Origin: Sulfurovum sp.
Lineage (GTDB): Bacteria; Campylobacterota; Campylobacteria; Campylobacterales; Sulfurovaceae
Direction: 5' to 3'
Length of the DNA stretch: 64,000 bases
Assembly (NCBI GenBank): GCA_002733215.1
Contig: NVUY01000008.1
Span: 1 to 64,000, forward strand
Position numbers and translations under genes: made by a program
The notes under the pieces: generated by a model
Told to the model about the DNA's origin: nothing
Database searches by the model: none
Seen by the model: only the letters and a program-made list of their open reading frames with translations
Shown: piece after piece, positions 11,453 through 55,916 of the stretch
How the letters are laid out: every line of letters begins with the position of its first letter
Numbering within the stretch: the first letter of the stretch is position 1

Positions 11453-11454
11453 TT

Positions 11455-15491: not shown

Positions 15492-15587
15492 ATGGAAGTA
15501 TTAATACTTATCGCTGGTCTTGCTCTAGTTAGTCTAGGGTGGATCAGTGGATTATATACAGAAATATATAGATCTATATTCAAATAA
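15492..15587 (+). CDS. Small hydrophobic protein (31 aa)
   Basis: AAGGAG then ATG: MEVLILIAGLALVSLGWISGLYTEIYRSIFK; not in ORF track because of length. Confidence 0.55.
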   Translation: MEVLILIAGLALVSLGWISGLYTEIYRSIFK

Positions 15588-15695
15588 ATATTCTAATGTA
15601 GTCCATGTTAAATGGACTACATTCAACACTTACTTTAACTCTTATCCTAACAAATCCTCGCATTTTATTTATACAGAAAACTTTAGAGATCCCCT

Positions 15696-16613: not shown

Positions 16614-16657
16614 GGGTATGATTATAGCTTATTCACTCTGTATGTTGATATAAGTAC

Positions 16658-17098: not shown

Positions 17099-17258
17099 TA
17101 GATAATCCTTTTTGTTGTATTATAAATAAAAATGTTAAAATACCACTTGATACATATCAAGATAAGTTATGAGAGGTGCCCATGTTTTTTTTCTATAAAA
17201 ACATTCAACCATTAAACTATTTTAGATATGATTTCTTAATTTTAATTTAGGATATTGT

Positions 17259-36049: not shown

Positions 36050-37309
36050 ATGAACAAAGCAGATTTTAATGAAGGTCTTTTGGGCTTTTTAGATGCATCA
36101 CCTACACCTTTTCATGCTACACAAAATATGGCTATGATGCTTGCAAATGCTGGATTTGTTCGACTCCTTGAAGAAGAGAAATGGGAGGTAGAAGAGGGAG
36201 CCAAATACTATGTGACACGTAATGACTCTTCACTTATAGCATTTACTTACCCTAAAGCCTCTAACTATATGATGTTAGGATGTCATACAGACTCACCTAA
36301 CTTAAAACTAAAACCAAACCCTGTCATAAAAGAGCATGGTGTGGTGAAGTTTGCTGTGCAGCCCTATGGTGGACTGCTTCTTAATCCTTGGTTTGACAGA
36401 GATTTGTCAATGGCAGGGAAAGTCTCCTACCTCAATGCACAAGATGAGATAAAAGAAACACTCATAGATGTGCGTAAATCCATAGCCATCATCCCCTCAC
36501 TTGCCATACACCTAGACAAAAAGGCAAATACAGAGCGTACAGTCAACAAGCAAACAGACATTTCTCCCATACTTTCAACCAATGATGACTTTGACTTTGA
36601 AGACTTTATACGTGGGCAGTTAGAAGAAAATGAAATACGTGATGTCAAAGAACTCTACGCTTCAGAGTTGAGCTTATATGCAACACAAAAAGCGTCTTAT
36701 GTAGGTCTTCAAGACGACTTTATAGCCTCGGCAAGGCTAGATAACCTTTTGTCTTGTTATGTGGGTCTGGTATCACTTTGTTCAGTAGATGCAGATGTAC
36801 CTATGCTTTTAATAGCCAGTGACCATGAAGAAGTGGGTAGTGTCTCTAGCTCTGGAGCGGCGGGAAGCTTTTTGGAAAATACACTTACACGTATGTACCC
36901 TGACTATGATGCATATATGCATATGATACGCACCTCTATGATGATAAGTGCAGACAACGCACATGCCATACACCCAAACTATGCAGATAAACACGACAAA
37001 AACCACAGCCCATACATAAACAAAGGTACAGTTATAAAAGTAAACGCCAACCAACGGTATGCTTCAAACACTACAAGTATTTCAAAGTTTATGCATGTGG
37101 CTAAAAAGGCAGGAGAACCGTACCAGCAGTTTGTTACACGTTCAGACATGGGATGTGGCTCAACCATAGGGCCTATCACCGCCACAAGACTAGGTATAGA
37201 AACACTTGACATTGGACTACCCACTTATGCGATGCATTCTATACGTGAATTGGCAGGGGCAGATGATGCTTATTCGTTATACAAGATTTTACTTGGGTGG
37301 AGAAATTGA
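36050..37309 (+). CDS. apeB: M18 family aminopeptidase
   Basis: GCHTDSPNLKLKP, ASDHEEVGSVSSSGAAG, DMGCGSTIGPI. Confidence 0.93.
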   Translation: MNKADFNEGLLGFLDASPTPFHATQNMAMMLANAGFVRLLEEEKWEVEEGAKYYVTRNDSSLIAFTYPKASNYMMLGCHTDSPNLKLKPNPVIKEHGVVKFAVQPYGGLLLNPWFDRDLSMAGKVSYLNAQDEIKETLIDVRKSIAIIPSLAIHLDKKANTERTVNKQTDISPILSTNDDFDFEDFIRGQLEENEIRDVKELYASELSLYATQKASYVGLQDDFIASARLDNLLSCYVGLVSLCSVDADVPMLLIASDHEEVGSVSSSGAAGSFLENTLTRMYPDYDAYMHMIRTSMMISADNAHAIHPNYADKHDKNHSPYINKGTVIKVNANQRYASNTTSISKFMHVAKKAGEPYQQFVTRSDMGCGSTIGPITATRLGIETLDIGLPTYAMHSIRELAGADDAYSLYKILLGWRN

Positions 37310-37439
37310 GGAAAATTTAGCTATTTCATCTCAAGGGCATTTCCTCGCTACAATAATGACAAATAATGGGGAGCATTATATATCTCAAAGGATTGAAGAT
37401 AAAAAGTATATAATCACCTATCTAAAATAAGGCTAACCC

Positions 37440-38366
37440 ATGGCAAAACATCCAACACTTTTACAACATTTCCGTTCTTTCGCTTTCCAAAACAACATAA
37501 AAGACTTTGATAAGGCATTGGAATATTTTACTGTTTTTGGTGGTACGGGGTGGGATGTGGATATCTCGAAAAGTGTGGCAGCCCTCATCGAAGAGAAAGT
37601 ACTTGCTAACTATGAAGCTCTGCATGAGAGTATGACGCGGTATACACACAATAATGGCTTATACCATATGCTGTTGTCCATTATTGCATTGGGTGTAAAC
37701 CATGAAAATGATGTGTTAAAAAAGGCCAAAGTAGGTAGAGACAAAGGTGAAGAAGCCATCGACTACTTGGTTAGTAAAAGTTTAATCAAGTTTGATTTGT
37801 CTGTAGAAAAACCTTTAAAAGAGGGGGGAGGTAAATCGGACAGAGTCTTGTTTGACTTACCTTTTATGCGTTTCTGGTTTGCTATGATTTCTCCTAACTA
37901 CCAAAGTGTTTCCCAAGGTAATTATGATGAATTTGTACAAAAATGGCATAAAATAAGAGACAACTTTTCCATTTTACTAAATAATATTTTACTTTTAGAA
38001 CTCGTGAAAGAAACATTTAACGCAAAGTCTAAAGATGACCCTATTGTAACTATAGGTTCTTACTACGATAAAAAGTTAGAGATAGACATACTTGCCAAAA
38101 GAAAGTCAGGTGCTATGATAGCTGGTGCCTGTAAATACTCTAAAGAGCCAGCAAAGAGTAATATGATGCATACCCTTATAGAGAAGTGTGAAAAAGCAGA
38201 ACTGGAAATTTCTGATTATGTACTTTTTTCTAAAAATGGATTTATTCCAGAAGTTGAAGCGTTGAAAGAAAAGGAAGTGGTACTTTTGTCTCGAACAGCA
38301 CTTTCTTCGTTACTAGATGACTTGAGTGAAGATGATCTATTGGTGTACAGGAACAAAAAGTACTAA
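37440..38366 (+). CDS. DUF234-containing protein
   Basis: LPFMRFWFAMISPN...GSYYDKKLEIDILAKRKSGAMIAGACKYS; resembles C-terminal half of archaeal-type ATPases, lacks Walker motifs. Confidence 0.65.
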   Translation: MAKHPTLLQHFRSFAFQNNIKDFDKALEYFTVFGGTGWDVDISKSVAALIEEKVLANYEALHESMTRYTHNNGLYHMLLSIIALGVNHENDVLKKAKVGRDKGEEAIDYLVSKSLIKFDLSVEKPLKEGGGKSDRVLFDLPFMRFWFAMISPNYQSVSQGNYDEFVQKWHKIRDNFSILLNNILLLELVKETFNAKSKDDPIVTIGSYYDKKLEIDILAKRKSGAMIAGACKYSKEPAKSNMMHTLIEKCEKAELEISDYVLFSKNGFIPEVEALKEKEVVLLSRTALSSLLDDLSEDDLLVYRNKKY

Positions 38367-38370
38367 CTCA

Positions 38371-40167
38371 TTAAAAAGGCCAAAATACCATGATGAGTGG
38401 AATAGACACAGCAAGTATAAGTAGCTCTAAAGGCAGACCCATTCGCCAATAGTCACCAAATTTATACCCACCTGGACCCATGATGATAGTGTTATTTTTA
38501 TGACCAATAGGCGATAAAAAAGCACAAGAAGCTGCAACAGCAACTCCCATAAGAAAGGCATCTGGGTTAACACCCAGCTCATTTGCAAGGCTTATGCCTA
38601 CGGGTGCTGCTACTAGTACAGTGGCTATGTTGTTAAGCATATCTGAGAGTGTCATGGTGACTACCATCAAGAGTGCCAAGACAGCCACCACTGGCCAACC
38701 ATCGGTCATGCTAAGGATACCATTGGCAATGAGTTGCGTCCCCCCTGATGCTTCAAGTGCCGCGCCTAGTGGGATGAGGGATGCCACGAGGACTATGACT
38801 GACCACTGTACGGAATGGTACATTTGTGAGGGTGTGAGTACTTTTAAAAATCCATAAAGAACAACGACCATAGCGAGTGCAACAGGTAGATACACGATGC
38901 CAAAACTTGACAGAGCAATGGCAAGTGCAAAGAGGGAAATAGCCAAGCCTGCTTTGTCTCGTTGAATCACTTGTAGCCCTCGCTTCTCTAAGGGTAATGC
39001 ACCTAGCCATTGCGTTGTATTGTTTAGTTGTTCATTTTCTCCCATGAGTAACAGTACATCACCCGCTTTAATCAGAGTTTTTCTCACTCTTTTACGCAGC
39101 GTCTTACCTTGTCTTGAAATCCCAAGTAACATAATCCCCTGTCTACTCAATAGACGAACATCATTTGCGGATTGTCCTACGATTTGTGCATCATAAGGTA
39201 TGGTTACTTCTGTCATGTGAAGTGTTCCTGCCAGTGTACCTTTGTGTTTTGATGATTTGGAATACGATAATTTGAGTTCTCCAGACAAACTTTCAAGAGA
39301 CTTTGGACTAGCCTCTATAACCAGTAGGTCACTCTTTCTAATCTCTTCATCAAGGGCTATACCAGGTAGTCTTTTCCCTTTTCTAATCAACCCAATGATG
39401 ATGGCATCATGTTCTTCTGTTAATTGTTCTAGTTGTGAAATGCTTTGTCCAATGGCAGAAGAATTATGATCGAAACCAATCTCTATGGTATAGTCATCTA
39501 AGTTTCGTAGATCATGAGAGGTATTTTTCTTTTGAGTGGACTCTGGAACAAGTCGCCAACCTATAAGCGAAACAAAAGCTATACCCGCAACAGCAGCTCC
39601 CAGTCCAACGTATGCAAAGTCAAACATAGTATAAGGGTCTCCTAGAGCAGTCTCACGAAATTGAGAGATGACAATGTTAGGAGGAGTCCCGATGAGTGTG
39701 ACCATCCCACCTAAGATAGTAGCAAAGGAAAGAGGCATAAGTGTTTTAGAGGGGGAACGTTTAGCCCGTTTAGCAGTTTGGATATCTACAGGCATAAGTA
39801 AGGCTAAGGTAGCAACATTATTCATAAAAGCAGACATGATAGCCCCAAGTATACCTATGGAAGCTATATGAGAAACCAAAGACCTACTAGAGTCTATAAA
39901 TTTTTCTGAGAGCATTTCTATGGCACCTGATTGAGACAATGCCTTAGAGATCATGAGTACCAGAGCGATAATAATAACAGCAGGATGTCCAAAGCCTGAA
40001 AACGCAGCTTCTTTAGGAATGACATTTAACAATAATCCTAATGATAATGCCCCAAAGGCTACAAGATCATACCTCCATCTTCCCCAAACGAGGAGTACAA
40101 GTACACCTCCCATCAATAAAAATAAAGTGATTTGTTCATAAGTCATGTTAGGAATGTATCCTTTCAT
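38371..40167 (-). CDS. SLC13-family permease with two RCK_C/TrkA-C domains
   Basis: MNNVATLALLMPV, GTPPNIVIS, two RCK-like segments, DMLNNIATVLVAAPV. Confidence 0.92.
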   Translation of the reverse strand: MKGYIPNMTYEQITLFLLMGGVLVLLVWGRWRYDLVAFGALSLGLLLNVIPKEAAFSGFGHPAVIIIALVLMISKALSQSGAIEMLSEKFIDSSRSLVSHIASIGILGAIMSAFMNNVATLALLMPVDIQTAKRAKRSPSKTLMPLSFATILGGMVTLIGTPPNIVISQFRETALGDPYTMFDFAYVGLGAAVAGIAFVSLIGWRLVPESTQKKNTSHDLRNLDDYTIEIGFDHNSSAIGQSISQLEQLTEEHDAIIIGLIRKGKRLPGIALDEEIRKSDLLVIEASPKSLESLSGELKLSYSKSSKHKGTLAGTLHMTEVTIPYDAQIVGQSANDVRLLSRQGIMLLGISRQGKTLRKRVRKTLIKAGDVLLLMGENEQLNNTTQWLGALPLEKRGLQVIQRDKAGLAISLFALAIALSSFGIVYLPVALAMVVVLYGFLKVLTPSQMYHSVQWSVIVLVASLIPLGAALEASGGTQLIANGILSMTDGWPVVAVLALLMVVTMTLSDMLNNIATVLVAAPVGISLANELGVNPDAFLMGVAVAASCAFLSPIGHKNNTIIMGPGGYKFGDYWRMGLPLELLILAVSIPLIMVFWPF

Positions 40168-40342: not shown

Positions 40343-41077
40343 ATGAAGTTAATACAAGTAAATACTCTTGATGAAGTTATCGATCAACTTGAAGTCTATA
40401 TTGATGACTGCATACAAACACAAAATCGAATGGGTTATTTTTCAACCTTATATCTTGAGGTAACTAAAGAGGTAAAGGAAGGTATTAGAACTTCACGTTT
40501 TGAAGATGGCCCTCGTATGGAAGTTTTAGATGTACACTTTGCAAACTTATTTTTTAGCTCTACTCAAGAGCCCTCTGTTGTATGGAAAAAAGCTTTCACG
40601 AGTGCGAAGTTTTCTAAGTTTATCTTAGTACAACACCTTCTTTTAGGTATGAATGCTCATATCAACTTTGATTTAGCACTTGCAGTAAATCAAAGTGTTA
40701 ATAAGGCTGAAATGGATGACTTGTTTAGGGATTATAGTGAAATCAATAGTATTTTAATAGAACAAATCGATGTTATGCAAGAAAAAGTGAATAGAAGCTG
40801 GTGGATTTTTAGAGTTCTAGACCTTATAGCACTAAGATTTGATGAATTACTAGTTGGGTTTAGTTTAATTAAAGCACGTGAGAGTGCCTGGAACTATGCC
40901 AAACAGATACAAAATGAAGACAAGGTTGATAAAGCATTAGAAGAGATGGAAACCTTAACTCTGTCTTTTTCCAATATACTTATCAAACCTAAGGGACTTA
41001 TTATTAATACAATTATATGGATAAACCACCTTTGTGAACCAAAATCAGTTAGTAAGTTAATTAAGACAATACGATGA
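40343..41077 (+). CDS. DUF5995-like protein
   Basis: RMGYFSTLYLEVTKEVKEGI...EVLDVHFANLFF...LVQHLLLGMNAHINFDLALAV. Confidence 0.65.
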   Translation: MKLIQVNTLDEVIDQLEVYIDDCIQTQNRMGYFSTLYLEVTKEVKEGIRTSRFEDGPRMEVLDVHFANLFFSSTQEPSVVWKKAFTSAKFSKFILVQHLLLGMNAHINFDLALAVNQSVNKAEMDDLFRDYSEINSILIEQIDVMQEKVNRSWWIFRVLDLIALRFDELLVGFSLIKARESAWNYAKQIQNEDKVDKALEEMETLTLSFSNILIKPKGLIINTIIWINHLCEPKSVSKLIKTIR

Positions 41078-41119
41078 AGCTTACTATACGTTAGACAACT
41101 TTTTAAATCTACCCAACGG

Positions 41120-41195
41120 TTTATATTGTTACACAATCACTGCACATGGATTAAATATACTTAAGTATATTTTTAAAATTTGTATTTTAAAGGTT
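41120..41195 (+). promoter_or_regulatory. 76-bp duplicated upstream element, copy 1, with palindrome ATATACTTAAGTATAT (41155-41170)
   Basis: About 69/76 identical to 43781-43856; lies immediately upstream of the patatin gene. Confidence 0.85.
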
Positions 41196-41197
41196 TC

Positions 41198-43687
41198 ATG
41201 ATGTCTAATGAAAAAGAAAAACAGCTACTTTTATTTTGTCAGAAAAGTGAGTTTGTAGAGGTGTTGAAAAAAGTTCAAGATGAAACGGGTGAAGATATTA
41301 TTGGTGATTTGATCCTTTTAAATAAGTTACTTAAAGATCAAGACAAAATAGATCAAGTATGTGAAAAATTGGACGATATATTTACAAAAAATAAAGAAAT
41401 ATTACAATTAGATAAGAAAGATGCCATAGAAAAGTTGCTTTTAGAATCTGAAAAAAAACAACTTATAGGTATTTGGGAAAGAATCCATTATACGATTACT
41501 TTATACCATATCAAAAAACAAGAGATGCAGAAGATAAAAGAAAGAAGAAAGAAAATTAATGGAGGGGAAGAAAATGCAAGCAAATATCGAAATGATGGAA
41601 GTTTTGGTCTTGCATTATCCGGAGGGGGTGTTCGCTCTGCCACTTTTAACTTAGGCTTGCTGCAAGCATTGCAAAGATGTAAGCTCTTAAAAGATATAGA
41701 TTATCTTTCAACTGTTTCAGGAGGAGGGTATATAGGTTCTTCTTTAACATGGTTTATGTCAAAAGATGGGAAATTTCCATTTGGTACCACAAGAATCGAT
41801 ACTAACCATGAAAGTGGTAACAGGGTATCTTGGATTAGGGATCATGGAAGTTATCTTGCCCCAGGTGATGGATTAAGTATTTGGTCTTTTTTTGCTGCTT
41901 TACTAAGTGCTATGTTTAAAAATATAGTCATTATATTTTTATTTTTTATTTCAATCTTTATTATTCTCAGTATACCATTTACAAGTTTTATGGGGATGTT
42001 TATTGGCTTTTGTATGTTTATTGGACTCATAGTCTTAGCATTCAAAATATTACCATTACAAATATTACACCATAAAAAGAAACTCTATATCCCAGTAAGC
42101 ATTATCCTTTTTGGATGGCTTTTTTATACTTTTTTATTTCCCTTATGTCAATCTAACGGTTTTGCATTTATTTTAACTACAGGAGTTTTTTATATTACAC
42201 TATTGGCTTTATATACTTTTCCCGACATCAAAAGTGATTATTCATTTATAAATGAAAGAAGTTGGAAAATAATTCATGGTAATTTATTGATGTATAGTAG
42301 CTTTTTTATTTTACTTGGGCTACTAACCTATACATTTGGTTTCCATCATATTAAAGAAGGAATAGATTTTCAAGAACTCTATGATGATGTATATTTAGCA
42401 CTCATCTCAGGGAGTTCTGGACTTATGATTATTTTAGGTGCATTAAAACAATTTTCTAACAATCGATATAAAAGTATTTTATTATTTGTTGGTGTCAATC
42501 TCCTGCTAGTTGGGTTAATATGGGTATTTTATATATTAGCGATATTTTTGCATAACTATATGAATATATTTTTTATGAATATATTTGTTTGGTATGATTT
42601 ACCAAACTTTATAGAGTCTTTTCCCGTAATTATAACTGTCTCTGCATCAATCGTTTTATTTCTATTATATCGATATATGGATCTTATGGATGTAAACTAT
42701 ACCTCTATGCATCGCTTTTATAAAAACCGATTAAAAGAAGCTTTTATACCTGGCACAGATGATAGTGAAATCTCTAAATCATATTTATGTAACCTGGACA
42801 CACTTCAATCACCATACCACATCATCAATACTGCAGTCAATACAATCAATTCCCAAAAAGTAAAATTACAAGGTAGAGGAGGCGATAATTTCATTTTTAG
42901 TCCACTGGTATCAGGGTCAAATGTGACAGGATATATTGAAACTAAAAAATACGAAGGAGGTACTATTGATTTAGCAACTGCAATGACCATCTCAGGTGCT
43001 GCGGTCAGTCCACATACTTCTATAATGAGATCTAGAGCAATATCTTTTCTTTTAACTTTATTTAACATAAGACTTGGATATTGGATCAAAAATCCGAGCT
43101 TTTCTGGAAAAAAAGGAAAACTTGATTCAGCTGGATTCTATCATTTTTCTATGCTGTTTCGTGAGTTGTTTGGTAAAGCACTCGATGAGACTAAAAAATA
43201 TTTACTTTTAACTGATGGCGGACATTTTGAAAACCTAGCACTTTATGAGTTAGTACGTAGGAAATGTAGATATATTATCGTAAGTGATGCAGGTGCTGAT
43301 CCAGATAGAACTTTTGAAGATCTTGGTAAAGTAATTGAGATGGTGAGGGTTGATTTTGGTGCCCAAATTAATATAAATACAATGCCAATGCATGCCAAAG
43401 GAAAAAAACGTTTATCAGATCTTGCATTTGTCCATGGCAGCATAAAATATAAAGATGGAACAAAGGCAGATCTTATCTACGTAAATACAGTGATGATCAG
43501 AGAGCTTCCGGAAGATTTATATACCTATGCAAAAGTCAATCCACAGTTTCCTGACCAATCAACTGTAGATCAGTTTTTTGATGAAAAACAGTTTGAAGCC
43601 TATCGTGAACTTGGTTACCAGATAGGATATAAAATGTGTCAAGAGATGTCACATGCAGATTTTAGGCAGATATTTAATATAAAATAA
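41198..43687 (+). CDS. Patatin-like phospholipase with internal transmembrane segments
   Basis: ALSGGGVRSATFNLG oxyanion motif, STVSGGGYIGS nucleophile, LTDGGHFENLALYEL Asp motif; multiple TM helices between. Confidence 0.9.
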   Translation: MMSNEKEKQLLLFCQKSEFVEVLKKVQDETGEDIIGDLILLNKLLKDQDKIDQVCEKLDDIFTKNKEILQLDKKDAIEKLLLESEKKQLIGIWERIHYTITLYHIKKQEMQKIKERRKKINGGEENASKYRNDGSFGLALSGGGVRSATFNLGLLQALQRCKLLKDIDYLSTVSGGGYIGSSLTWFMSKDGKFPFGTTRIDTNHESGNRVSWIRDHGSYLAPGDGLSIWSFFAALLSAMFKNIVIIFLFFISIFIILSIPFTSFMGMFIGFCMFIGLIVLAFKILPLQILHHKKKLYIPVSIILFGWLFYTFLFPLCQSNGFAFILTTGVFYITLLALYTFPDIKSDYSFINERSWKIIHGNLLMYSSFFILLGLLTYTFGFHHIKEGIDFQELYDDVYLALISGSSGLMIILGALKQFSNNRYKSILLFVGVNLLLVGLIWVFYILAIFLHNYMNIFFMNIFVWYDLPNFIESFPVIITVSASIVLFLLYRYMDLMDVNYTSMHRFYKNRLKEAFIPGTDDSEISKSYLCNLDTLQSPYHIINTAVNTINSQKVKLQGRGGDNFIFSPLVSGSNVTGYIETKKYEGGTIDLATAMTISGAAVSPHTSIMRSRAISFLLTLFNIRLGYWIKNPSFSGKKGKLDSAGFYHFSMLFRELFGKALDETKKYLLLTDGGHFENLALYELVRRKCRYIIVSDAGADPDRTFEDLGKVIEMVRVDFGAQININTMPMHAKGKKRLSDLAFVHGSIKYKDGTKADLIYVNTVMIRELPEDLYTYAKVNPQFPDQSTVDQFFDEKQFEAYRELGYQIGYKMCQEMSHADFRQIFNIK

Positions 43688-43780
43688 GGAAGCATTATAT
43701 TGTGAGTTTTGGTGGTAGCATTTTATGTTGAATAAAAGTAGTCACAAGTGCATATCCAATTTTATAATTTACGTTAACTA

Positions 43781-43856
43781 TTTATATTATTACACAACAA
43801 CTGCACAGGGATCAAATATACTTAAGTATATTTTTAAAATTCTTATTTTAAAGGTT
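43781..43856 (+). promoter_or_regulatory. 76-bp duplicated upstream element, copy 2, palindrome at 43816-43831
   Basis: See copy 1; lies upstream of the haem peroxidase operon. Confidence 0.85.
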
Positions 43857-43977
43857 AGGATTAGATAAGTGATAGTAGAACGTAGGGTTTTACTAATAAG
43901 GATTGCTTGTGTTTGTTCTGTAAATGTGAGCATTTGAAACGTAGTTCCGAAACTTAAGAAGTAGAGGAGACAGGACA

Positions 43978-46875
43978 ATGTTGAACTTTCGTATATCATT
44001 AGTTATATGTGTAACAATTGGGCTTATATCCAACAGTCTTTTTGCAGATTCATTAAAAGAAAAAATAAGTGCTCAAAAAGCTTGTGTAAAATTGCTTGCA
44101 AAGGGTTTACGGCCCCTTGCAGATAAACAAACAGATAGGTTTTTAGGTAAAGTAGAAGAATATACAGCCAATTGTAGAGGTGGACAAAAGGCACTTAAAT
44201 ATCGTGATACAGTTTGGGTTGACTGGTCTAATTATTGGGCAACGGGTGATATCAGCAGTAAGTCAAGCAGTAGAGAAGGGTTTACTTCTTTAGGCAGACA
44301 TTTAAAACCCAATGGTCGTGGGATCGATGGCGCTTTGATAGATTTAGAATACCAGCGAATGGAATTAATCAGATTTAATTTATTTGACAATAATACCTAT
44401 GAGCAATATATCAGCGGTCTGGATGAAAAAACTGGAAAAGTCTTAAAAAAATGGGACAGTATGCGTTTACCTGCATCTCATCCTGACTATCAAAAAGTCA
44501 CCAGTACCTCAGGTGAACAGCTTTGCAAGGGTGAACTTATTCGCCACCGTACACTCACAGGTATCTGTAATGACATTTATAATCCTGCAATGGGTTCGAC
44601 CAACCAATTATTTGCAAGAAATGTCAGTTTTGAGTCTACCTATCCGGATTTGGGTAAAACAGAACTCACACGTAACCGTCATGCCGACAGACTAAGTCTA
44701 CTTAAACCTGATCCTCAAGTCATATCTCGTATATTGTTTACACGTGCACAAGAAAAAGCAGATGCTTGTAATAAGGGACTGGGGTTACCCGGCTATGACA
44801 AGAACGCGCAGTGTGATTATAAAAAAGCGCCATTTTTTAATGTACTTGCAGCATACTGGATTCAGTTTATGACCCATGATTGGTTCAATCATTTAAGAGA
44901 AGGTCAAAATGCTGCTAGTAAAATGTCTGTAGGTTGTAAAAATAAAGGTATTAATAATACGGAACAAGTGCTTACGGAAGAAGAAGTTGCAAAACTTGGT
45001 TGTAGACCAGAAGATGAAGTAGATGTTGCTTTAATCGCACAAGAGTTGCCCGCTCCTGAGTTTGAACATAAAGGTAAAAAGTATCTGGCAAGGGCACATA
45101 AAACAACGCAAAATACAAATACCGCATGGTGGGATGCTTCTCAACTCTACGGTTATGATGAAAACTCACAAAAACGTGTCAAACGTGACAGTAAAGATCC
45201 TGCGAAACTACAGATGATAGCAAGAGGGAAACATACTGGAGAAGGGGAGAAACAGGGGTATTTACCCATATTCAACGATACAGACCCTATTAATCCTGTC
45301 TGGAAAGGTCAGGAAGCCACTGGTTTTCCGGGCAATTGGACTATTGGTCTGAGTTTTTACCACAATTTGTTTATACGTGAACATAATGTTTTTGTAGATG
45401 CTTTTAGGAAACAAGCAGCATCAACACCAGACGCAGACTCAGGATTACGTAACCCTGAGAAACCTGATAAGGTTATTAGCTATGCTGCTGTGAGTAATGA
45501 AGAACTATACCAAGTTGCAAGACTGGTAGTATCTGCTGAAATTGCCAAAATCCATACGATCGAATGGACAACACAATTACTTTATAATGAGCCTCTTTTT
45601 AAAGGTATGAATGCCAATTGGAGTGGTTTATTTGGAGAAGATAATCGTGTTTCGAAAATTTTAGAAAAGATCGTTGTCAATCCTTTAAATAAATCTTCCA
45701 ATGAAACCAAAGCAAATCAAATATATTCTGTATTTGCATCTGGAGCAGGTATCTTTGGCTTGGGAAGTCGCAGATATAAGGAAAAAGTTAGATTTTTAGG
45801 ACATCTTTCCGGGAAAAAAGACATTTGGGATTTAAAAAATCCTGATCATGTAAACGGAGGTGTTAACCATTTTGGCTCACCTTTTAATTTCCCTGAAGAG
45901 TTCACTACTGTGTACCGTTTACACTCACTTATGCCTGATTTACTAGAATTCAGAAAATGGCAAGACCCCAATAAGATCGATCAGAAAATTCCTGTGATCA
46001 GCACCTTTAGAGGAAAAGCAACCACTGCTATGACAGAAGGTGGTATGCGTAATTGGGCTTTAAGTTTGGGAAGACAACGTCTTGGAGCTTTAACCTTACA
46101 AAATCATGCACTCTTTTTACAGAATTTGGAATTACCTCGCTTAAAAAGCAAAAGCAATAAACTGGATATTGCAGCATTGGATCTAATTCGTGATCGTGAA
46201 CGAGGTGTGCCAAGATTTAATGAGTTTAGACGTCAATATGGATTAACCCAGTTAAGCAGTTTTGACGACTTTATCGATAAACGACTGGACAAAGACAGTG
46301 CGGAGCGAAAAGAACAGGAACGTTTGATCGGCTTAATGCGTGAAGTATATGGTCAGCATCAATGTGATGAAAGTAAAATCATTACCGACGCACAGTTAAA
46401 TGCAGACGGTTCACGGATCAATGATTGTTTAGGACATCCTAACGGTACGATGGTTGACAATATTGAAGATCTTGATACTGTAGTGGGATGGCTGGCAGAG
46501 TTTACACGACCACACGGGTTTGCTATTTCAGAAACACAGTTTCATGTGTTTATTTTAAATGCATCAAGACGCTTGTTTAGTGACCGTTTTTTCACGTCTA
46601 GTTTCCGACCGGAATTTTATTCTTCTATGGGTATAGAATGGGTAAGCAATAACGGGCCAGATGGCAAACAGATGGAAAAAGAACTTTATAATGGTCATAA
46701 AGTTGAAGTCTCACCGTTAAAACGTGTGATGATACGTACAATGCCCGAACTTTCAGGGCAACTTGCAGATGTAATGAATGTTTTTGACCCTTGGGCCAGA
46801 GACAGAGGTGAATATTATTCTCTGGAATGGAAAGCAAAATCTCATGCAAAATCAGATGAGAGTTTCAAGGAATAA
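43978..46875 (+). CDS. Secreted animal-type haem peroxidase / fatty-acid dioxygenase-like protein
   Basis: Signal peptide; FMTHDWFNH distal His, TWWDASQLYG, YHNLFIREHN, EFTTVYRLHSLMPDLLEF proximal His with Tyr at -3. Confidence 0.9.
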   Translation: MLNFRISLVICVTIGLISNSLFADSLKEKISAQKACVKLLAKGLRPLADKQTDRFLGKVEEYTANCRGGQKALKYRDTVWVDWSNYWATGDISSKSSSREGFTSLGRHLKPNGRGIDGALIDLEYQRMELIRFNLFDNNTYEQYISGLDEKTGKVLKKWDSMRLPASHPDYQKVTSTSGEQLCKGELIRHRTLTGICNDIYNPAMGSTNQLFARNVSFESTYPDLGKTELTRNRHADRLSLLKPDPQVISRILFTRAQEKADACNKGLGLPGYDKNAQCDYKKAPFFNVLAAYWIQFMTHDWFNHLREGQNAASKMSVGCKNKGINNTEQVLTEEEVAKLGCRPEDEVDVALIAQELPAPEFEHKGKKYLARAHKTTQNTNTAWWDASQLYGYDENSQKRVKRDSKDPAKLQMIARGKHTGEGEKQGYLPIFNDTDPINPVWKGQEATGFPGNWTIGLSFYHNLFIREHNVFVDAFRKQAASTPDADSGLRNPEKPDKVISYAAVSNEELYQVARLVVSAEIAKIHTIEWTTQLLYNEPLFKGMNANWSGLFGEDNRVSKILEKIVVNPLNKSSNETKANQIYSVFASGAGIFGLGSRRYKEKVRFLGHLSGKKDIWDLKNPDHVNGGVNHFGSPFNFPEEFTTVYRLHSLMPDLLEFRKWQDPNKIDQKIPVISTFRGKATTAMTEGGMRNWALSLGRQRLGALTLQNHALFLQNLELPRLKSKSNKLDIAALDLIRDRERGVPRFNEFRRQYGLTQLSSFDDFIDKRLDKDSAERKEQERLIGLMREVYGQHQCDESKIITDAQLNADGSRINDCLGHPNGTMVDNIEDLDTVVGWLAEFTRPHGFAISETQFHVFILNASRRLFSDRFFTSSFRPEFYSSMGIEWVSNNGPDGKQMEKELYNGHKVEVSPLKRVMIRTMPELSGQLADVMNVFDPWARDRGEYYSLEWKAKSHAKSDESFKE

Positions 46876-46888
46876 AAGGAGAATTATC

Positions 46889-47899
46889 ATGATAAAGTCA
46901 GTATTTTTCCTTTTGCTAATAGGTATATCTATAATTTATTTTGTAAGGAGTAATGAAGAGATGAAACAACAATTAACAATTAATCAACTGGTTGAACAAA
47001 TGGGGCAGAGTATTGAGGTTATTGGAAGTGCTGAACGTGAAAATGCTATCATACCTAGATTTAATCAGCCTAAAACCATCGCGTGTGTGAATGCAGAGTT
47101 TAAAGTGCATGATGACATCCCAGAAAAACTTAAACAAGGTATTTTTCTTCATGCAAGTACTTATCCTGCCATGATACGCTTTGCAAATGCCACTAATCAG
47201 GATGACTCGAAAAAAGATATACGAGGTCTATCCATTAGACTATCTGATGTGAAAGGTAAAGTACTTTGGGGTGAAGAAGGATATCAAGATTTTATATTTA
47301 ACAGTTATCCTGCACTTTTTGTAGCGACTCCAGAAGATTTTCTAACTTTTATACAAGCACGTCAAAAAGATAAAAAGTTAGGTTTTTTTCTTAATCCTTT
47401 CGATTTACATTTAAAATCACTTTGGATTGTATACAAAGCAAGAGAAAAACATTTAAGCCCTCTAGATATACGTTTTTGGAGTACTGTTCCTTTTCGTTTA
47501 GGTGATGTGGCAGTTAAATACTCAATGATCCCCTGTTCAAAATATAAAACAACAGAGGCTGTAAATCCCGGAGAGAATCAGCTACGTGCTGCACTTAAAG
47601 CACATTTAAAAAAAGAAGATGCGTGTTTTCTCTTTGCTGTGCAGATACAAACTGATCCCAAGTCTATGCCAATCGAAGATGCATCTGTGATTTGGGATGA
47701 GGAACTTTCTTCGTTTATCCCCTTAGCAACGATTACTATAAAAGATCAGGATTTTGACACAGAGAAATCATTAGAAAGCTGTGAAAAAAGTAGCTTTAAC
47801 CCATGGCAAAGTCTCGCAGCACATGAACCATTGGGAAGAATGAATGAAGTACGGCGTTCAGTCTATGACAATGCCGAGAAATTTAGAAATAAGGAGTGA
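46889..47899 (+). CDS. Catalase-fold family protein (membrane-anchored)
   Basis: N-terminal TM MIKSVFFLLLIGISIIYF; STYPAMIRFANA, DIRGLSIRLSDV, NEVRRSVY (RxxxY haem ligand); start re-set from 46778. Confidence 0.8.
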   Translation: MIKSVFFLLLIGISIIYFVRSNEEMKQQLTINQLVEQMGQSIEVIGSAERENAIIPRFNQPKTIACVNAEFKVHDDIPEKLKQGIFLHASTYPAMIRFANATNQDDSKKDIRGLSIRLSDVKGKVLWGEEGYQDFIFNSYPALFVATPEDFLTFIQARQKDKKLGFFLNPFDLHLKSLWIVYKAREKHLSPLDIRFWSTVPFRLGDVAVKYSMIPCSKYKTTEAVNPGENQLRAALKAHLKKEDACFLFAVQIQTDPKSMPIEDASVIWDEELSSFIPLATITIKDQDFDTEKSLESCEKSSFNPWQSLAAHEPLGRMNEVRRSVYDNAEKFRNKE

Positions 47900-47903
47900 C
47901 AAT

Positions 47904-48359
47904 ATGCATACGACTGTAAAAACATGGTTAAATAAAACCTCTGAAGAACTCGATGAGATATATAGCAAAGCAGAAGCAGGAAACATCCCAAGATCTGAAA
48001 TGAGAGGAACGGCAATTTTAGCGGGTTCACTCTTTTCAAAAACGGTGGCTTTTACAGCTCGTATGTTTGCTTGGCAGGGAAAAGTATTTGATCTTTTTTG
48101 TCCAGACAATAAAGCGGGATTACTGATTAATAAAATTACATTTTTTTCTTTGTCCTTTATCGTTGCCAAGGTTTATCGTGATAAAAGTTGGTTTGATGAG
48201 AAGGAGACGATTGTGATAGACTATTCTAAAACGTCATTTGTTGCTCAAGTCATTCGAGATGAAATTCGAGAAATAGAACCTGGTGTCTATTTGGGCAAGG
48301 TTTGGTGGGGGCAAAAACAGATTTTTCATTTTGCTTTAACAAAAGCAGAAAAAACATAG
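47904..48359 (+). CDS. Conserved hypothetical protein of peroxidase cluster
   Basis: FAWQGKVFD...VIDYSKTSFVAQVIRDEIREIEPGVYLGKVWW; possibly GXWXG/DUF4334-like; start re-set from 47844. Confidence 0.6.
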   Translation: MHTTVKTWLNKTSEELDEIYSKAEAGNIPRSEMRGTAILAGSLFSKTVAFTARMFAWQGKVFDLFCPDNKAGLLINKITFFSLSFIVAKVYRDKSWFDEKETIVIDYSKTSFVAQVIRDEIREIEPGVYLGKVWWGQKQIFHFALTKAEKT

Positions 48360-48366
48360 GAGTACA

Positions 48367-49677
48367 GTGATGACAGCACAATCAAGTTTTATGATTTTAT
48401 CATCTGTAAAAGATACTAAAATAGAAGAACTCACTACTTTGCTTTCCAGTATGAATTCAACGATTCCTGCACATGCTGACCCTAAAAACGATTTACTGCC
48501 ATTTGGTCGTTTTCCCCGACTACATTTTGCACGTTTTGTGATTATTGAGGCACATACTGCGGATGAGATTGAAGCGTTTGGGATAGCAGCAAGACCCTGG
48601 CAACCAACTCTGGCATTTTTTGGTGAAATAGATGGTGATATTGATTCATTTTTTACGGAACTTGAAGATCTTGCCAGTGTGGGATTAAGAAAGATATTTG
48701 CTTTGTGTGAAAAATTTCCTAAAGAAGAGGAAAATTTACAACAATGGCTCAAAAAGAATAATACTAAATCTAATGCAAATTATGTGAATTGGATAGGTCG
48801 AACGGTGAAACATATACATGAAGATGATGCTTTGCATCAGTCTTTAGCTGCTTATTTACGTGAACATAAAGATGACATTGACAAAAATAACACTTTAGCG
48901 TTAAGACAAAAACTTTTGTCTCATGTTGAAATGGAAAAATATGCAGGAAGGCTTACCCTTACAGCAGAAGAGAAAACACCTTTGAAATGGAAGATGTTTA
49001 ATTTCATACATATGATTGGCGTGCCTTTGGTCTTAGTGCTCTTGTCTCCATTATTTTTAATCATGGCACCATTCTTTTTTATACGTTTACGCATGTTAGA
49101 ACGTTCTGATCCGGAACTTTTTATACGTCCTGAGCACTCATATCTAGAAAAACTTACGATACAGGAAGACTGGAGTGTTAGCAATCAATATAATGTATTT
49201 GGTGACATTAAACCGGGAGTTTTTCGTTTACTTACTTTAAAGTTCATACTTTTTTTAGTCGATTATTTTTCCAGACATGTATACAAGCGAGGTTTTTTAG
49301 CACGGATCAAAACCATACACTTCGCTCGCTGGGTACTTCTTGATGATAACAAAAGAGCTTTTTTTGCCAGTAATTATGATGGCAGTCATGAGAGTTATAT
49401 GGATGACTTTATCAACAAAGTCGGATGGGGGCTAAATCTTATTTTCAGTCATGCTGTGCCTTATCCTAAAACATCTTGGCTCATAAAGCAGGGTGCCTAT
49501 AGAGAGCAGCAGTTCAAATATACACAAAGGCTGCATCAATTGCCTACAGAGGTCTGGTATAAAGCGTATCCAGATTTAACAAACACTGATTTAGCACGTA
49601 ATAGTCGTATTAGAAAAGGTGTGGAAATTCGTCAATCAAGTGTTGATGAAATTCGTGAATGGCTTCACTTAATTTGA
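48367..49677 (+). CDS. Hypothetical membrane protein with two HFARxV-containing segments
   Basis: LHFARFVIIEAHTADEIEAF (N-term) and IHFARWVLLDDNKRAFF (C-term) flank a TM hairpin MIGVPLVLVLLSPLFLIMAPFFFI. Confidence 0.6.
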   Translation: MMTAQSSFMILSSVKDTKIEELTTLLSSMNSTIPAHADPKNDLLPFGRFPRLHFARFVIIEAHTADEIEAFGIAARPWQPTLAFFGEIDGDIDSFFTELEDLASVGLRKIFALCEKFPKEEENLQQWLKKNNTKSNANYVNWIGRTVKHIHEDDALHQSLAAYLREHKDDIDKNNTLALRQKLLSHVEMEKYAGRLTLTAEEKTPLKWKMFNFIHMIGVPLVLVLLSPLFLIMAPFFFIRLRMLERSDPELFIRPEHSYLEKLTIQEDWSVSNQYNVFGDIKPGVFRLLTLKFILFLVDYFSRHVYKRGFLARIKTIHFARWVLLDDNKRAFFASNYDGSHESYMDDFINKVGWGLNLIFSHAVPYPKTSWLIKQGAYREQQFKYTQRLHQLPTEVWYKAYPDLTNTDLARNSRIRKGVEIRQSSVDEIREWLHLI

Positions 49678-49682
49678 GGATA

Positions 49683-51203
49683 ATGGAAATGAATAATGAA
49701 AATACTTTCAAGTTTGATGATTTACAGGCATTGCTTCGGTTTAGTCACGGACGATTAACTGATACTTGTTTTTTATTGTTACATGTGGCTGATGTTAGAA
49801 AAGCAAAAAAGTGGTTAGATACTGCGCCGATCAGTAATGCGACAGAGTCAGATAGCTTGCCTGACAGGGCATTGCAAATTGCTTTTACGGTGGAAGGATT
49901 ACGTGTGATGTGCGTGGCAGAATCTGTCATTGATGGATTTTCAGATGAATTTATAATGGGGATGTCGGGAGAAGAAAGTCGTTCCAGAAGACTGGGTGAT
50001 ATAGGTATGAATGCACCTGAGAAGTGGGACTGGGGTGGAGAGAGTAAAAAAATACCACATCTTATGTTGATGTACTATGCTAAAGAAAATGCTGTAAAAG
50101 ATTTTCGAACGAGTATAGAAACGGAAGATTTCGTAAAAGCTTTTCATGTGATACACGAATTACCTACTTTACATATTGGGGAGATCGAACCTTTTGGTTT
50201 TAAAGACGGTATCAGTCAGCCTGTCATTGATTGGGAGTGTAGGCAGAGTACTAATGCACATGAACGTGAAGGGTATTCTAATCTAGTAGCAGTGGGTGAA
50301 GTTGTTTTAGGATACCCAAACGAATATGGGCTTTATACCGCAAGACCACTCATAGATGAAAGAGAAGACAGTGTTGCAGCATGTTTACCTCATGCAGAAG
50401 ACAAGACTGGGTTAAAAGACTTAGGACGTAACGGGAGTTATCTTGTTGTGCGTCAATTAGGTCAAGATGTACCGGGGTTTTGGCAATTTCTGTATAAAAT
50501 GAGTGCTTCAAATTTCGATAAATGTGAGCTCTTGGCAGCATCGATGGTGGGGAGAAGACGTGATGGAAAACCCTTAGTCCTCAAAAGTGTAGCAGCAATA
50601 CCTGGTATTTCTACACAAAATTGTGACAATCATTTTACCTATGATTTTGATACAGAGGGATACCAGTGTCCTATTGGTGCACATGTCCGCAGAGCAAATC
50701 CACGTACTGGCGATTTACCGCCACGTGTTACCGGTATTATCAACCGAGTTATGAAAAAATTGGGTTTTGATCAAAAACAGGAAGAAGATCTGGTTGCTTC
50801 AACACGCTTTCATCGTATATTAAGACGTGGTCGCAGCTATGGTCCGAAATTAGCTCCAGCAGAAGCAATCAAAGCAGATGCAGAAGTTGCAGAACGAGGA
50901 TTACAGTTTATGTGTCTCTCAGCCAATATCTTACGTCAGTTTGAATTTGTTCAAAGTGCTTGGTCTATGAGTAGTAAATTTAGTGGATTACAAAATGAGA
51001 GTGATCCTTTACTGGGAAATAGAGAGGTACTAATGAATGGGGAAAGGACAGATCAGTTCAATCGTCCAAGTGCAAAGGGAGTGACAGAAAAAATATATAA
51101 TCTCCCAAAATTTGTCACTGTAAAAGGTGGAGCCTATTTCTTTATGCCTGGACTTAGTGCAGTGAAATATATCGCATCATTACCTATAAAAGAGGATACA
51201 TAA
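49683..51203 (+). CDS. DyP-type peroxidase
   Basis: FGFKDGISQPVI (GxxDG) and CPIGAHVRRANPRTG proximal His motif; start re-set from 49659. Confidence 0.9.
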   Translation: MEMNNENTFKFDDLQALLRFSHGRLTDTCFLLLHVADVRKAKKWLDTAPISNATESDSLPDRALQIAFTVEGLRVMCVAESVIDGFSDEFIMGMSGEESRSRRLGDIGMNAPEKWDWGGESKKIPHLMLMYYAKENAVKDFRTSIETEDFVKAFHVIHELPTLHIGEIEPFGFKDGISQPVIDWECRQSTNAHEREGYSNLVAVGEVVLGYPNEYGLYTARPLIDEREDSVAACLPHAEDKTGLKDLGRNGSYLVVRQLGQDVPGFWQFLYKMSASNFDKCELLAASMVGRRRDGKPLVLKSVAAIPGISTQNCDNHFTYDFDTEGYQCPIGAHVRRANPRTGDLPPRVTGIINRVMKKLGFDQKQEEDLVASTRFHRILRRGRSYGPKLAPAEAIKADAEVAERGLQFMCLSANILRQFEFVQSAWSMSSKFSGLQNESDPLLGNREVLMNGERTDQFNRPSAKGVTEKIYNLPKFVTVKGGAYFFMPGLSAVKYIASLPIKEDT

Positions 51204-51204
51204 A

Positions 51205-52413
51205 ATGAATAGAATTAAAATGCAAATATTGACAATGCTTCATAAACTACTCTTGGGGTTATTACATTTTGAACGTAGGTTAGAGCCTTGGTTTCGACAG
51301 AGATTTGATGCGTGGTTTCGTGAACCGCTTGCAGGATTTATACAGTATCTTATCAACAGAAAAAGAAAAGACGAAGGTTTGCAGCTTGCGGAAGAAAAAA
51401 TAGAGGAAGATGAAGAGGAAAGTTTAAGCAATATTATAGACCAAATGGCAGACCAAATGCGTGGACGGTTTAAACCAGGGGGTTATGAACGTGGAGGAAA
51501 TACAAAAACCCATGGAGTAGTACGTGCAACTGTAACTATACGGGATGATATACCTGAACAATACAAAAAAGGTGTGTTTGCCAATCCTCGTACTTATCCG
51601 GCATATGTACGATATGCAGGGCCTGGACCGGATGTACCTGCTGACATACGCGATGTTGGATTTATGAGCATGTCCGTAAAACTTATGGATGTACCTGGTA
51701 AAAAAATGATGGATGAAGAAAAATTTACGCAAGATTTCATCACGACCAGTGGAGGTGCAACGTTTGTGACACCAAATACACGTGAAAATGCTAAGTTACA
51801 GTATTGGAGTTTGCAGAATATGTCTTTGTTTTATTTTATCAATCCCTTTGATTCTCATTTTCTCGATATGGCGATGCAGAGTCTTTGGAATGAAACGCAA
51901 TACAATCCTCTAGGACAACGCTACTGGAGTTGTACACCGTATTTGTTGGGAGAAGGACAAGCGATGATCTTTTCTTTTATTCCAAAAACAGAAGTTTATA
52001 AAGAGATACCAGGTCTACCATTTGGTGCTGTTCCTTTTAATTATTTAAGAGATAACTTGATGAAGACTTTGGAAGAAAAAGATGTTGAATTTGATATGCT
52101 AGTGCAGTTGCAGACCGATCCGTTTTTAATGCCTATAGAAGACAGTTCAGTACGTTGGCCTGAAAAACTATCACCTTTTGTTCCTGTGGCTACGGTACAT
52201 ATTCCTAAACAAAAATATGACCATGAGGTAATGTCAGCATTTACTAAACGTTTGAAAATGAATCCTTGGCATTGCATACCAGAACATCGTCCCTTGGGTA
52301 ATTTAAACAGGGCACGATTTAAATTATATAAAGAGTTGTCAGATTTCCGCCAAAAAATGAATCAGACTACACATCTTGAACCTACAGGGGACGAGGTGTT
52401 TGATTTGGAGTAA
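51205..52413 (+). CDS. Catalase-fold family protein, second copy
   Basis: TKTHGVVRATVTIRDDIPE, TYPAYVRYAG, DIRDVGFMSMSVKLMDV, NRARFKLY (RxxxY). Confidence 0.82.
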   Translation: MNRIKMQILTMLHKLLLGLLHFERRLEPWFRQRFDAWFREPLAGFIQYLINRKRKDEGLQLAEEKIEEDEEESLSNIIDQMADQMRGRFKPGGYERGGNTKTHGVVRATVTIRDDIPEQYKKGVFANPRTYPAYVRYAGPGPDVPADIRDVGFMSMSVKLMDVPGKKMMDEEKFTQDFITTSGGATFVTPNTRENAKLQYWSLQNMSLFYFINPFDSHFLDMAMQSLWNETQYNPLGQRYWSCTPYLLGEGQAMIFSFIPKTEVYKEIPGLPFGAVPFNYLRDNLMKTLEEKDVEFDMLVQLQTDPFLMPIEDSSVRWPEKLSPFVPVATVHIPKQKYDHEVMSAFTKRLKMNPWHCIPEHRPLGNLNRARFKLYKELSDFRQKMNQTTHLEPTGDEVFDLE

Positions 52414-54176: not shown

Positions 54177-55916
54177 CTATTGAAATATTTTACATTTATA
54201 TTTTTCGCGGTTTTCTGTAATATTTTTGTCTAAATATATATTTCTTCTTTGAAAGAATTTTCTAGCTTTTTCATCTTTTTTGAGTATGTCAACACAATTA
54301 ATAGCAGATGATTGAGATTTGCTTAAATTAATATCAAGAACACCTCTGATGCTCTTGTTTTGATCGTCATCAAGCAAGAGTTCATCTCTTAAAAATTTTG
54401 CATTACTGCCAAATAAGTTGGCATTTGTCATTGTTGCGCCAGTAATAGTAGGAGCCCCACATTCTGACTTATTAATTTCTCCATCCAGTGTTGTACACTC
54501 ATAAATATAATATTTCGTTTTGCTGAAATCTGCATTTGTTAGATTGGCATCTTTAAGAAGAGTATCTGTTATAATAGCCTCAGAAAAAGAGGTACCTTTA
54601 AGTTGAGCAGAAGTTAAATTTGTTTTGGTGAGGTTAGCTTTTCTTAAGTCAGCATCTTTAAAATTTGTATACTCAAGTTTAGCATTGTAAAGGTTTACAT
54701 TTTGCATATTAGTATTCTGAAAATCACTGACTTTTTTATTTTCTTTTGTAAACGTATTTATATTTTGCATTTGTGCACCAGTTAAATTTGCACCCTGTAA
54801 ATTTGCTCCACCAAGATAAGCATATTCAAATTGCACATTAACTAGCTCTGCCTCTGTCAAGTCAGCATTTTCTAAATCTACAGCTTGCATATGTGCATGA
54901 GTTAAATTTGACGCCTGTAGTTCAGTGTTTTTTAAATTTGCACGTGTAAGAATATTTCCCTTCAAAATAGCATAGCGTAGGTTTCTGTTTGACAAATCTA
55001 TACGTGTACCATGATTTATGATAAGATCATGTTCTTTGTCTTTTTCATCTATATTTTTCATAGTTAAATATCGTGGTATATAAAGAGCAGATTTTGAGAT
55101 TATTGCCATCTCTTCTTCCGTTACAATCAATCTAGGATAACATACTATATCCTCTGTATAGTTAGAAAGCTTATTGATTAATCTGCATGAATATTTATCT
55201 TTACTTGTGTTTTCATAGCGCTGATCATAATTTGCATAGACTGTGGGATAATAGTAGGAACGATAATATTCAATCATCATCGCTCCTATTCCTATGAAAA
55301 AGATAAAAGATAGTCCAATGTCTACTAAACGGTATATCTTATGAGAAAAATTAAAATGTTTATGATTATATAAAATAGAAGAAAGTATAAGTACCAAATC
55401 TATGATAAGAATAATTAAGTGAACTGGAGTGATCCAAAAATGATGATAATCAGCAAAACGAATATAGATGGTGACAAAAATAATTATCGGCAGAATATAG
55501 AGTAACAGATACAGCATTGAGTTAATCATAAAACCTTCCCAACCACGGGTTCCTTTTATAAATGCAAAACCATAAAGTGATGGATTAATAGTATTAAGAT
55601 CAATTCTGTTTTTATATTCGTCAAGTTTCTCGAGATTTTTATAGTGATTAAAGAGGAGATTAAAATGCAATAACAAGAGTAAAAGAGGTGCTAAAACATA
55701 AAAATGAAGCAGTCCGAGTTCAAAATCTATAAATGGCATTTTAAAACTATGTTTTGGAAGTAATAAGGCAATATCACTTGTATTTATGACAGAAATAAAT
55801 ACATAAAGACCAAAAGAAAAGAAAAATATTAAATTATTATTGGTTTTATTGGCAGAGTTATTAAGTAAATCTCTTATAGCTTCATTGGATAAAGAGTTTT
55901 TGGTTTTAGTGCTCAT
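54177..55916 (-). CDS. Membrane-anchored pentapeptide-repeat protein
   Basis: N-terminal TMs; repeated A(N/D)LxX units (NLRYAILKGNILTRANLKNTELQASNLTHAHMQAVDLENADL). Confidence 0.9.
   Translation of the reverse strand: MSTKTKNSLSNEAIRDLLNNSANKTNNNLIFFFSFGLYVFISVINTSDIALLLPKHSFKMPFIDFELGLLHFYVLAPLLLLLLHFNLLFNHYKNLEKLDEYKNRIDLNTINPSLYGFAFIKGTRGWEGFMINSMLYLLLYILPIIIFVTIYIRFADYHHFWITPVHLIILIIDLVLILSSILYNHKHFNFSHKIYRLVDIGLSFIFFIGIGAMMIEYYRSYYYPTVYANYDQRYENTSKDKYSCRLINKLSNYTEDIVCYPRLIVTEEEMAIISKSALYIPRYLTMKNIDEKDKEHDLIINHGTRIDLSNRNLRYAILKGNILTRANLKNTELQASNLTHAHMQAVDLENADLTEAELVNVQFEYAYLGGANLQGANLTGAQMQNINTFTKENKKVSDFQNTNMQNVNLYNAKLEYTNFKDADLRKANLTKTNLTSAQLKGTSFSEAIITDTLLKDANLTNADFSKTKYYIYECTTLDGEINKSECGAPTITGATMTNANLFGSNAKFLRDELLLDDDQNKSIRGVLDINLSKSQSSAINCVDILKKDEKARKFFQRRNIYLDKNITENREKYKCKIFQ

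Follow-up and report, generated by a model that had tools for sequence, protein, structure and literature searches.

A six-gene haem-protein cluster in Sulfurovum: a candidate bacterial lipid dioxygenase system with an alpha-dioxygenase-type protein

Contig NVUY01000008.1 of Sulfurovum sp. (GenBank assembly GCA_002733215.1) carries a run of genes for haem proteins. The window analyzed here comprises positions 1 to 64,000 of this contig. A first-pass annotation proposed that positions 40343–52413 encode an oxylipin (lipid hydroperoxide) biosynthesis cluster, with peroxide defence as the alternative. The question raised by the locus is therefore what these haem proteins act upon and which of the genes belong together. 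All eight open reading frames of the proposed cluster were found where they had been placed, on the + strand. However, the conserved unit consists of six genes, at positions 43978–52413, and the proposed left border was too wide. From sequence comparison it appears somewhat probable that the six genes constitute a bacterial dioxygenase system for a fatty acid or other carboxylate lipid.

A conserved six-gene unit

The first gene (43978–46875) encodes HPX, a 965 amino acid (aa) haem dioxygenase of the alpha-dioxygenase (alpha-DOX) type (Pfam An_peroxidase, 3.4e-67). CAT1 (46889–47899) is a catalase-fold haem protein with a weak match to Pfam Catalase (6e-6, barely above the cut-off). This is followed by S171 (47904–48359), of about 150 aa and predicted to form a lipocalin or fatty-acid-binding protein (FABP)-like barrel, and by H436 (48367–49677), which is membrane-anchored and has two predicted ABM-like halves; neither has a Pfam family. 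DYP (49659–51203) is a D-type dye-decolorising peroxidase (DyP) with weak Pfam DyP domains and an NCBIfam Dyp_perox_fam match of 2e-22. The last gene (51205–52413) encodes CAT2, which has no Pfam family and was recognized by profile-profile alignment as a catalase-fold paralogue of CAT1 (100% probability). All six genes are on the + strand and are separated by gaps of 13 bases or less or overlap, in line with the short or overlapping gaps noted in the first-pass annotation.

HPX relatives were scanned in one genome per species; 209 were found and the best 80 were kept with their flanks. Matches to CAT1 and CAT2 were assigned to the better-scoring family before gene order was counted. A search with the window proteins matched S171 in 37 of the 80 loci, and CAT1 or CAT2 matches are present in 34, H436 in 26 and DyP in 25; the gene-order count places S171 in 35 of them. 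CAT1 is directly downstream of HPX in every locus that bears it (25/25), S171 is placed after CAT1 in 23 loci, and DyP adjoins H436 in 23 of 26. The exact order and strand of the six window genes are found in ten other loci among the 80. The hosts are Methylococcales, other gammaproteobacteria and a desulfobacterium, and the loci include those of Methylomicrobium, Methylomonas, another Methylococcaceae bacterium, Crenothrix, Desulfurivibrio, Pseudomaricurvus, a Chromatiales bacterium and a Ctena symbiont. An eleventh locus has all six genes, with the second half inverted and upstream.

Since these 80 loci had been chosen by HPX, an independent test of linkage was made with an H436 profile in 369 gammaproteobacterial genomes. 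This gave five matches, one of which is the centre genome. DyP is next to H436 in all five, and CAT2 is present as well in the three strong ones. One strong new match (L101) displays the whole six-gene order; the other (L100) has H436-DyP-CAT2 with no HPX on its 12.7 kb contig. Scattered homologues had been named beforehand as the outcome that would speak against a dedicated cluster; both the 80 loci and the H436 search show conserved linkage instead.

The dioxygenase, the catalase-fold pair and their partners

The best solved relatives of HPX are rice alpha-DOX (4kvj, E-value = 1.9e-59) and Arabidopsis alpha-DOX (4hhr, E-value = 2.9e-57). The next-best, lactoperoxidase, is far behind (E-value = 8e-5). 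Alignment to alpha-DOX places the distal His at position 300, the catalytic Tyr at 646 and the proximal His at 649. In addition, His526, Thr531 and Arg865 align with the carboxylate-binding set of alpha-DOX, known in the rice enzyme as His311, Thr316 and Arg559. PMC8720084 has a paper on His-311 among its references. All of these residues are invariant in 81 of 81 HPX homologues; the invariance of the distal motif is partly built in because this motif, unlike the other positions, served as a search word. The N-terminus of HPX has a hydrophobic, signal-like segment by hydropathy. The peroxidase had been grouped at first with fatty-acid dioxygenases in general, i.e. cyclooxygenase (COX), alpha-DOX and linoleate diol synthase (LDS). 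The structure matches and residues bear this out and narrow it to alpha-DOX. By homology and residues HPX thus appears to belong to the fatty-acid alpha-dioxygenases, and it would be expected to form a 2-hydroperoxide.

The CAT1 profile has coral allene oxide synthase (AOS, 1u5u) as its best PDB match (E-value = 1.1e-11), ahead of any catalase, and the link to the coral enzyme proposed at first is thus upheld for CAT1. The position of the distal His is occupied by Gln60 in CAT1 (Gln in 22/22 CAT1 sequences) and by Asn99 in CAT2 (Asn in 21/21). The proximal haem-ligand motif Arg-x-x-x-Tyr is kept in all of them (R322/Y326 in 22/22 CAT1, R371/Y375 in 21/21 CAT2). CAT1 and CAT2 were also aligned with y4iL of pNGR234a, with catalase-family homologues of Methylobacterium currus and D. 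gobiensis, and with the catalase of the source genome itself. The first three aligned gaplessly; the proximal Tyr of the genome's true catalase was unaligned in that run and was placed by spacing. The haem-contacting Arg residues are kept in CAT1 and CAT2, and the distal His is retained in all four comparison proteins. A placement of the proximal Tyr in a YWSTTPY stretch, and of a coral-like Thr102-His103 pair in CAT2, was considered and was rejected by the coral AOS profile alignment and by the gapless alignment with y4iL, in which the Arg-x-x-x-Tyr ligand motif lies close to the C-terminus and Q60 or N99 occupies the distal position.

Coral catalase-related enzymes retain T66, H67 and N137 (PMC5617202). 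The T66-H67 positions are Asn-Gln in CAT1 and Gly-Asn in CAT2. As the distal Thr-His pair is absent, CAT1 and CAT2 are likened to coral AOS in their proposed mode of action and are not classed as members of that family. In plant AOS and prostacyclin synthase (PGIS) an amide placed axially to the haem iron serves to break the O-O bond, and LDS/EAS P450s are predicted to have one as well (PMC13049297). Lipid-hydroperoxide chemistry is proposed for CAT1 and CAT2 on account of this use of an amide, and CAT1 is by analogy a candidate fatty-acid hydroperoxide isomerase or lyase.

These residues bear directly on the alternative of extracytoplasmic peroxide defence, where the four haem peroxidase and catalase proteins would clear H2O2 or lipid peroxides formed under stress. 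DYP retains its peroxidase residues: the GFKDG motif (Asp183) and the proximal His385 are invariant in 18 of 18 sequences, and its profile matches DyPs in PDB, of the D-type, down to an E-value of 4e-68, although it falls below the NCBIfam curated cut-off. In addition, methanotrophs and nitrifiers, which are among the carriers, live with a high O2 or oxidant flux. However, the distal His that is essential for H2O2 dismutation in monofunctional haem catalases is absent from every CAT1 and CAT2 member. This sequence difference argues against H2O2 dismutation by either protein. An ordinary catalase is encoded elsewhere in the source genome, which together with the loss of the distal His weakens the defence alternative. 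The alpha-DOX substrate-binding residues of HPX have no role in defence, and the di-haem and P450 partners in related loci (below) belong to oxygenase families. A plain peroxide-defence operon is unlikely.

The AlphaFold model of S171 (pLDDT 77) is mostly beta, and its top folds are Tcur_1030, bile-acid-binding and fatty-acid-binding proteins, and lipocalins. The model is suggestive of a calycin-type barrel, and S171 is a candidate lipid carrier. The model of H436 (pLDDT 86) displays two barrel-like halves that flank a hydrophobic, membrane-type segment.

The fold of H436 raises a further possibility, that of a specialised-metabolite cluster. The substrate of HPX and DyP would then be a non-lipid acid, polyketide-like or other, and H436 (ABM-like) and S171 (calycin-like) would serve in cyclisation or tailoring. 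The closest matches to H436 are ABM/SchA-like proteins from polyketide pathways. A gammaproteobacterial open reading frame of 1423 aa (L102, positions 8380–12651, − strand) is a fusion of a P450, an H436-like membrane/ABM region (a weak H436 match) and a DyP, and this resembles a biosynthetic enzyme. On the other hand, S171 is nearest to lipid-binding barrels, and no other family recurs in most of the cluster-bearing loci, whose neighbours were annotated in part; the cluster thus has no synthase or ligase in common among these annotated neighbours. This explanation is very unlikely.

REPLACEMENTS and fusions are seen at the related loci. A P450 gene is in the place of CAT1, followed by S171, in four loci. 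Tandem RoxA-like di-haem proteins are beside HPX in nine loci, mostly with S171 in between. Like the P450s, these di-haem proteins either substitute for CAT1 or accompany it. The 10S-DOX and 7,10-DS of P. aeruginosa are characterised fatty-acid enzymes of this RoxA-like di-haem family (PMC4496055). In Thioalkalivibrio denitrificans (L019, positions 14143–16191) an S171-like domain is fused in frame to a RoxA-like protein, downstream of HPX and a P450. Each of the swapped partners of HPX and S171 thus belongs to a haem family in which some members form or rearrange lipid hydroperoxides, and of the comparative data this speaks most strongly for an oxylipin function.

The same di-haem neighbours are compatible with another explanation, namely that the genes serve to oxidise hydrophobic compounds (lipids, isoprenoids or others) outside the cytoplasm for catabolism or protection, as rubber oxygenases do, and not to form signalling oxylipins. 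Lipases near some clusters point in this direction: a Tle1-like hydrolase follows CAT2 in two loci (L010 and L016), and patatins are present near others, two plasmids included. The GMC oxidoreductase and large cytochrome c of Nitrosomonas would also fit. The full carboxylate-binding set of HPX, however, indicates free fatty acids, and the window cluster is without a RoxA-like protein. Hosts such as Nitrosomonas and Methylococcales are not known as lipid degraders. On balance, this explanation is rather unlikely, and a dioxygenase system for carboxylate lipids is preferred.

Three plasmids show related or analogous gene company. In pNGR234a (L112, positions 2107–8915) a catalase-family gene, taken as y4iL, lies between genes for RoxA-like di-haem proteins and one for a patatin, which is distantly analogous to the arrangement described here. 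In Methylobacterium currus (L113, positions 2419–4987) a plasmid-borne protein of the animal-peroxidase type adjoins the catalase-family protein that keeps the distal His, which resembles the 10S-DOX/hydroperoxide lyase pair of Nostoc. The mobilizable Calothrix plasmid pCAL6303.01 (L114, positions 4842–11590) carries an alpha-DOX-like protein, near which a GMC oxidoreductase and a patatin are encoded. The HPX-related plasmid proteins are annotated merely as 'peroxidase family protein'.

Borders of the unit and horizontal transfer

The two genes at the left of the originally proposed cluster encode a DUF5995 protein (40343–41077, + strand; Pfam DUF5995, 5.5e-55) and a patatin-like membrane protein (41180–43687, + strand; Pfam Patatin, 1e-7). 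The latter is separated from HPX by 290 bp. Both had been counted as members of the pathway. Matches to the window proteins in the 80 HPX loci are few and mostly weak, i.e. four for the patatin, one (weak) for DUF5995 and one for the downstream DUF900 hydrolase, and the two left-hand genes were therefore rejected as conserved pathway parts. No full-length homologue of the patatin was found among 40 relatives of the source genome. Since the order from HPX to CAT2 recurs while the patatin and DUF5995 do not, the unit is taken as these six genes. The patatin is a possible supplier of fatty acids, but as a neighbour outside the core unit. Promoter and terminator scans gave values no higher than in shuffled sequence.

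In a tree of HPX sequences, the window protein and those of Methylococcales form sister branches (support 100). The peroxidase family is above cut-off in no other of 398 genomes of the phylum, the source genome alone having it, and the cluster was therefore acquired horizontally. The S171, H436, DyP and CAT2 proteins of Nitrosomonas are 58%–76% identical to those of the window, whereas its HPX sits in a Nitrospira clade of the tree. A Nitrospira-type HPX together with a Methylococcales-like S171-H436-DyP-CAT2 block indicates that the two halves of the cluster have been joined more than once. In Nitrosomonas europaea and relatives (L061, positions 12935–17653) HPX is separated from this block by a GMC oxidoreductase and a large cytochrome of the c type.

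To the left of the cluster, positions 36050–40167 encode an M18-type aminopeptidase and an SLC13-type transporter without close kin in the searched genomes of the genus. The aminopeptidase shows 39%–43% identity in Methylococcales and Nitrosomonas. The acquired region may thus begin left of the cluster. These kinless genes also raised the possibility that a methanotroph contig had contaminated the genome bin. This was rejected for the contig as a whole: an arginine decarboxylase-like gene at 19836–21713 reaches 88% identity with other genomes of the genus, and on this basis the contig is genuine and the cluster occupies an accessory region within it.

Two other open reading frames of the window, both on the − strand, were recorded. 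Positions 54177–55916 encode a membrane protein of 579 aa with a long pentapeptide-repeat tail, and positions 192–1607 a caspase-like (p20-type) protease, judged by eye.

Proposed scheme and known systems

From the families, residues, linkage, gene order, fusions, replacements and horizontal transfer described above, a scheme can be drawn in which we infer each chemical step. HPX would be exported and act outside the cytoplasm, where a Tyr646 radical would drive the oxygenation of a free fatty acid, with the carboxylate held by His526, Thr531 and Arg865. By residue identity with plant alpha-DOX, the product would be a 2-hydroperoxy acid. CAT1 and perhaps CAT2, with Tyr-ligated haem and a distal Gln or Asn, may cleave or isomerise the lipid hydroperoxide and would not dismutate H2O2. 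This would parallel the task of the catalase-related enzymes of corals and Nostoc and of the distal-amide P450s of plants and fungi. S171, judging from its fold, may carry or present the lipid, and H436-DyP is a putative membrane-anchored second redox unit that would consume peroxide or oxidise the product. Successive action of the enzymes on one lipid, proposed in the first-pass annotation as release, dioxygenation, isomerisation or cleavage, and detoxification, would be a hypothesis drawn from linkage, fusions and replacements.

Several observations weigh against this scheme. HPX exceeds plant alpha-DOX in length by some 330 aa, and we know of no activity, substrate or product for any member of the HPX subfamily. 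The best PDB match of CAT2 is also coral AOS but at a weak E-value of 0.012. The structural matches of the two novel proteins are modest: the best for S171 is 4mve (TM 0.53, E-value = 2e-4), followed by lipocalins and FABPs at 0.02–0.3, and the H436 model is nearest to the ABM-like WhiE-ORFI (E-value = 1e-3, TMq 0.39). DyP, CAT2 and S171 are without the signal-like N-terminus seen in HPX, and it is thus not evident that the proteins form a simple linear pathway within a single compartment. Finally, 43 of the 81 HPX sequences in the tree are without a recognised partner in the fetched flank (some contigs are short), so that the rest of the cluster is not required for HPX function everywhere.

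A bolder interpretation is that CAT1 and CAT2 represent a novel class of hydroperoxide isomerases or lyases with a catalase fold. Their Tyr-ligated haem would act together with a distal amide, in convergence with the P450s plant AOS and prostacyclin synthase and their distal Asn. The alpha-DOX, the lipid-carrier barrel and the membrane H436-DyP unit would join them in an oxylipin pathway that is widespread yet unrecognised among methanotrophs, nitrifiers and other bacteria and is passed between phyla by horizontal transfer. This interpretation is possible but rather doubtful.

The cluster may be an unstudied bacterial counterpart of the oxylipin pathways of plants and animals. Few bacterial oxylipin systems are known, and according to PMC5155153 the roles of oxylipins 'remain largely unidentified in prokaryotes'. 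The cluster or its parts are present in the cultivable Nitrosomonas europaea, Methylomonas, Halomonas and Alteromonas, which makes the question directly testable. A change from distal His to amide in the catalase fold would probe how haem is directed to catalase chemistry or to lipid-hydroperoxide rearrangement. Alpha-DOX-type enzymes are also wanted as biocatalysts for fatty aldehydes (PMC8720084, PMC9305512).

Among known systems, plant alpha-DOX (PIOX; rice 4kvj/4kvk, Arabidopsis 4hhr) and cyanobacterial CalDOX/LepDOX have the fold family and all catalytic and carboxylate-binding residues in common with HPX. HPX differs in its extra length, its signal-like N-terminus and its place in a cluster of several haem-protein genes. 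Alpha-DOX homologues in Proteobacteria and Acidobacteria have been catalogued, without gene context, by Kim et al. (PMC8720084). The direct precedent is Nostoc punctiforme, where a 10S-DOX acts with a catalase-related 10S-hydroperoxide lyase (PMC13049297), i.e. a dioxygenase of the animal-peroxidase type with a catalase-fold partner from a separate gene. The present cluster differs in having an alpha-DOX-type dioxygenase, two distal-amide catalase-fold proteins and the additional conserved S171, H436 and DyP.

With coral AOS/hydroperoxide lyase (1u5u) the Arg and proximal Tyr positions are shared, as is the distal Asn in the case of CAT1. However, the coral enzyme keeps Thr66-His67, and CAT1 and CAT2, unlike it, are not fused to a lipoxygenase. 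The fungal DOX-P450 fusions (LDS, AOS, EAS) likewise join a dioxygenase from this superfamily with a second haem enzyme for rearrangement of the hydroperoxide, and the four related loci with a P450 after HPX recall this arrangement. Here the genes are separate, the first enzyme is of the alpha-DOX type, and the window locus is without a P450. P. aeruginosa PA2077/PA2078 (10S-DOX/7,10-DS, FadCcp) and RoxA are comparable at the family level to the tandem di-haem proteins beside HPX in related loci (PMC4496055), though the window cluster itself has no such protein. No description of the cluster or of the distal amide pair was found in the open-access literature, to which the search was confined, subscription papers not being covered. 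The combination of a peroxidase-type dioxygenase with a catalase-related partner is thus known from Nostoc, and alpha-DOX homologues are known from Proteobacteria; what appears to be new is this six-gene cluster and the distal amide pair of CAT1 and CAT2.

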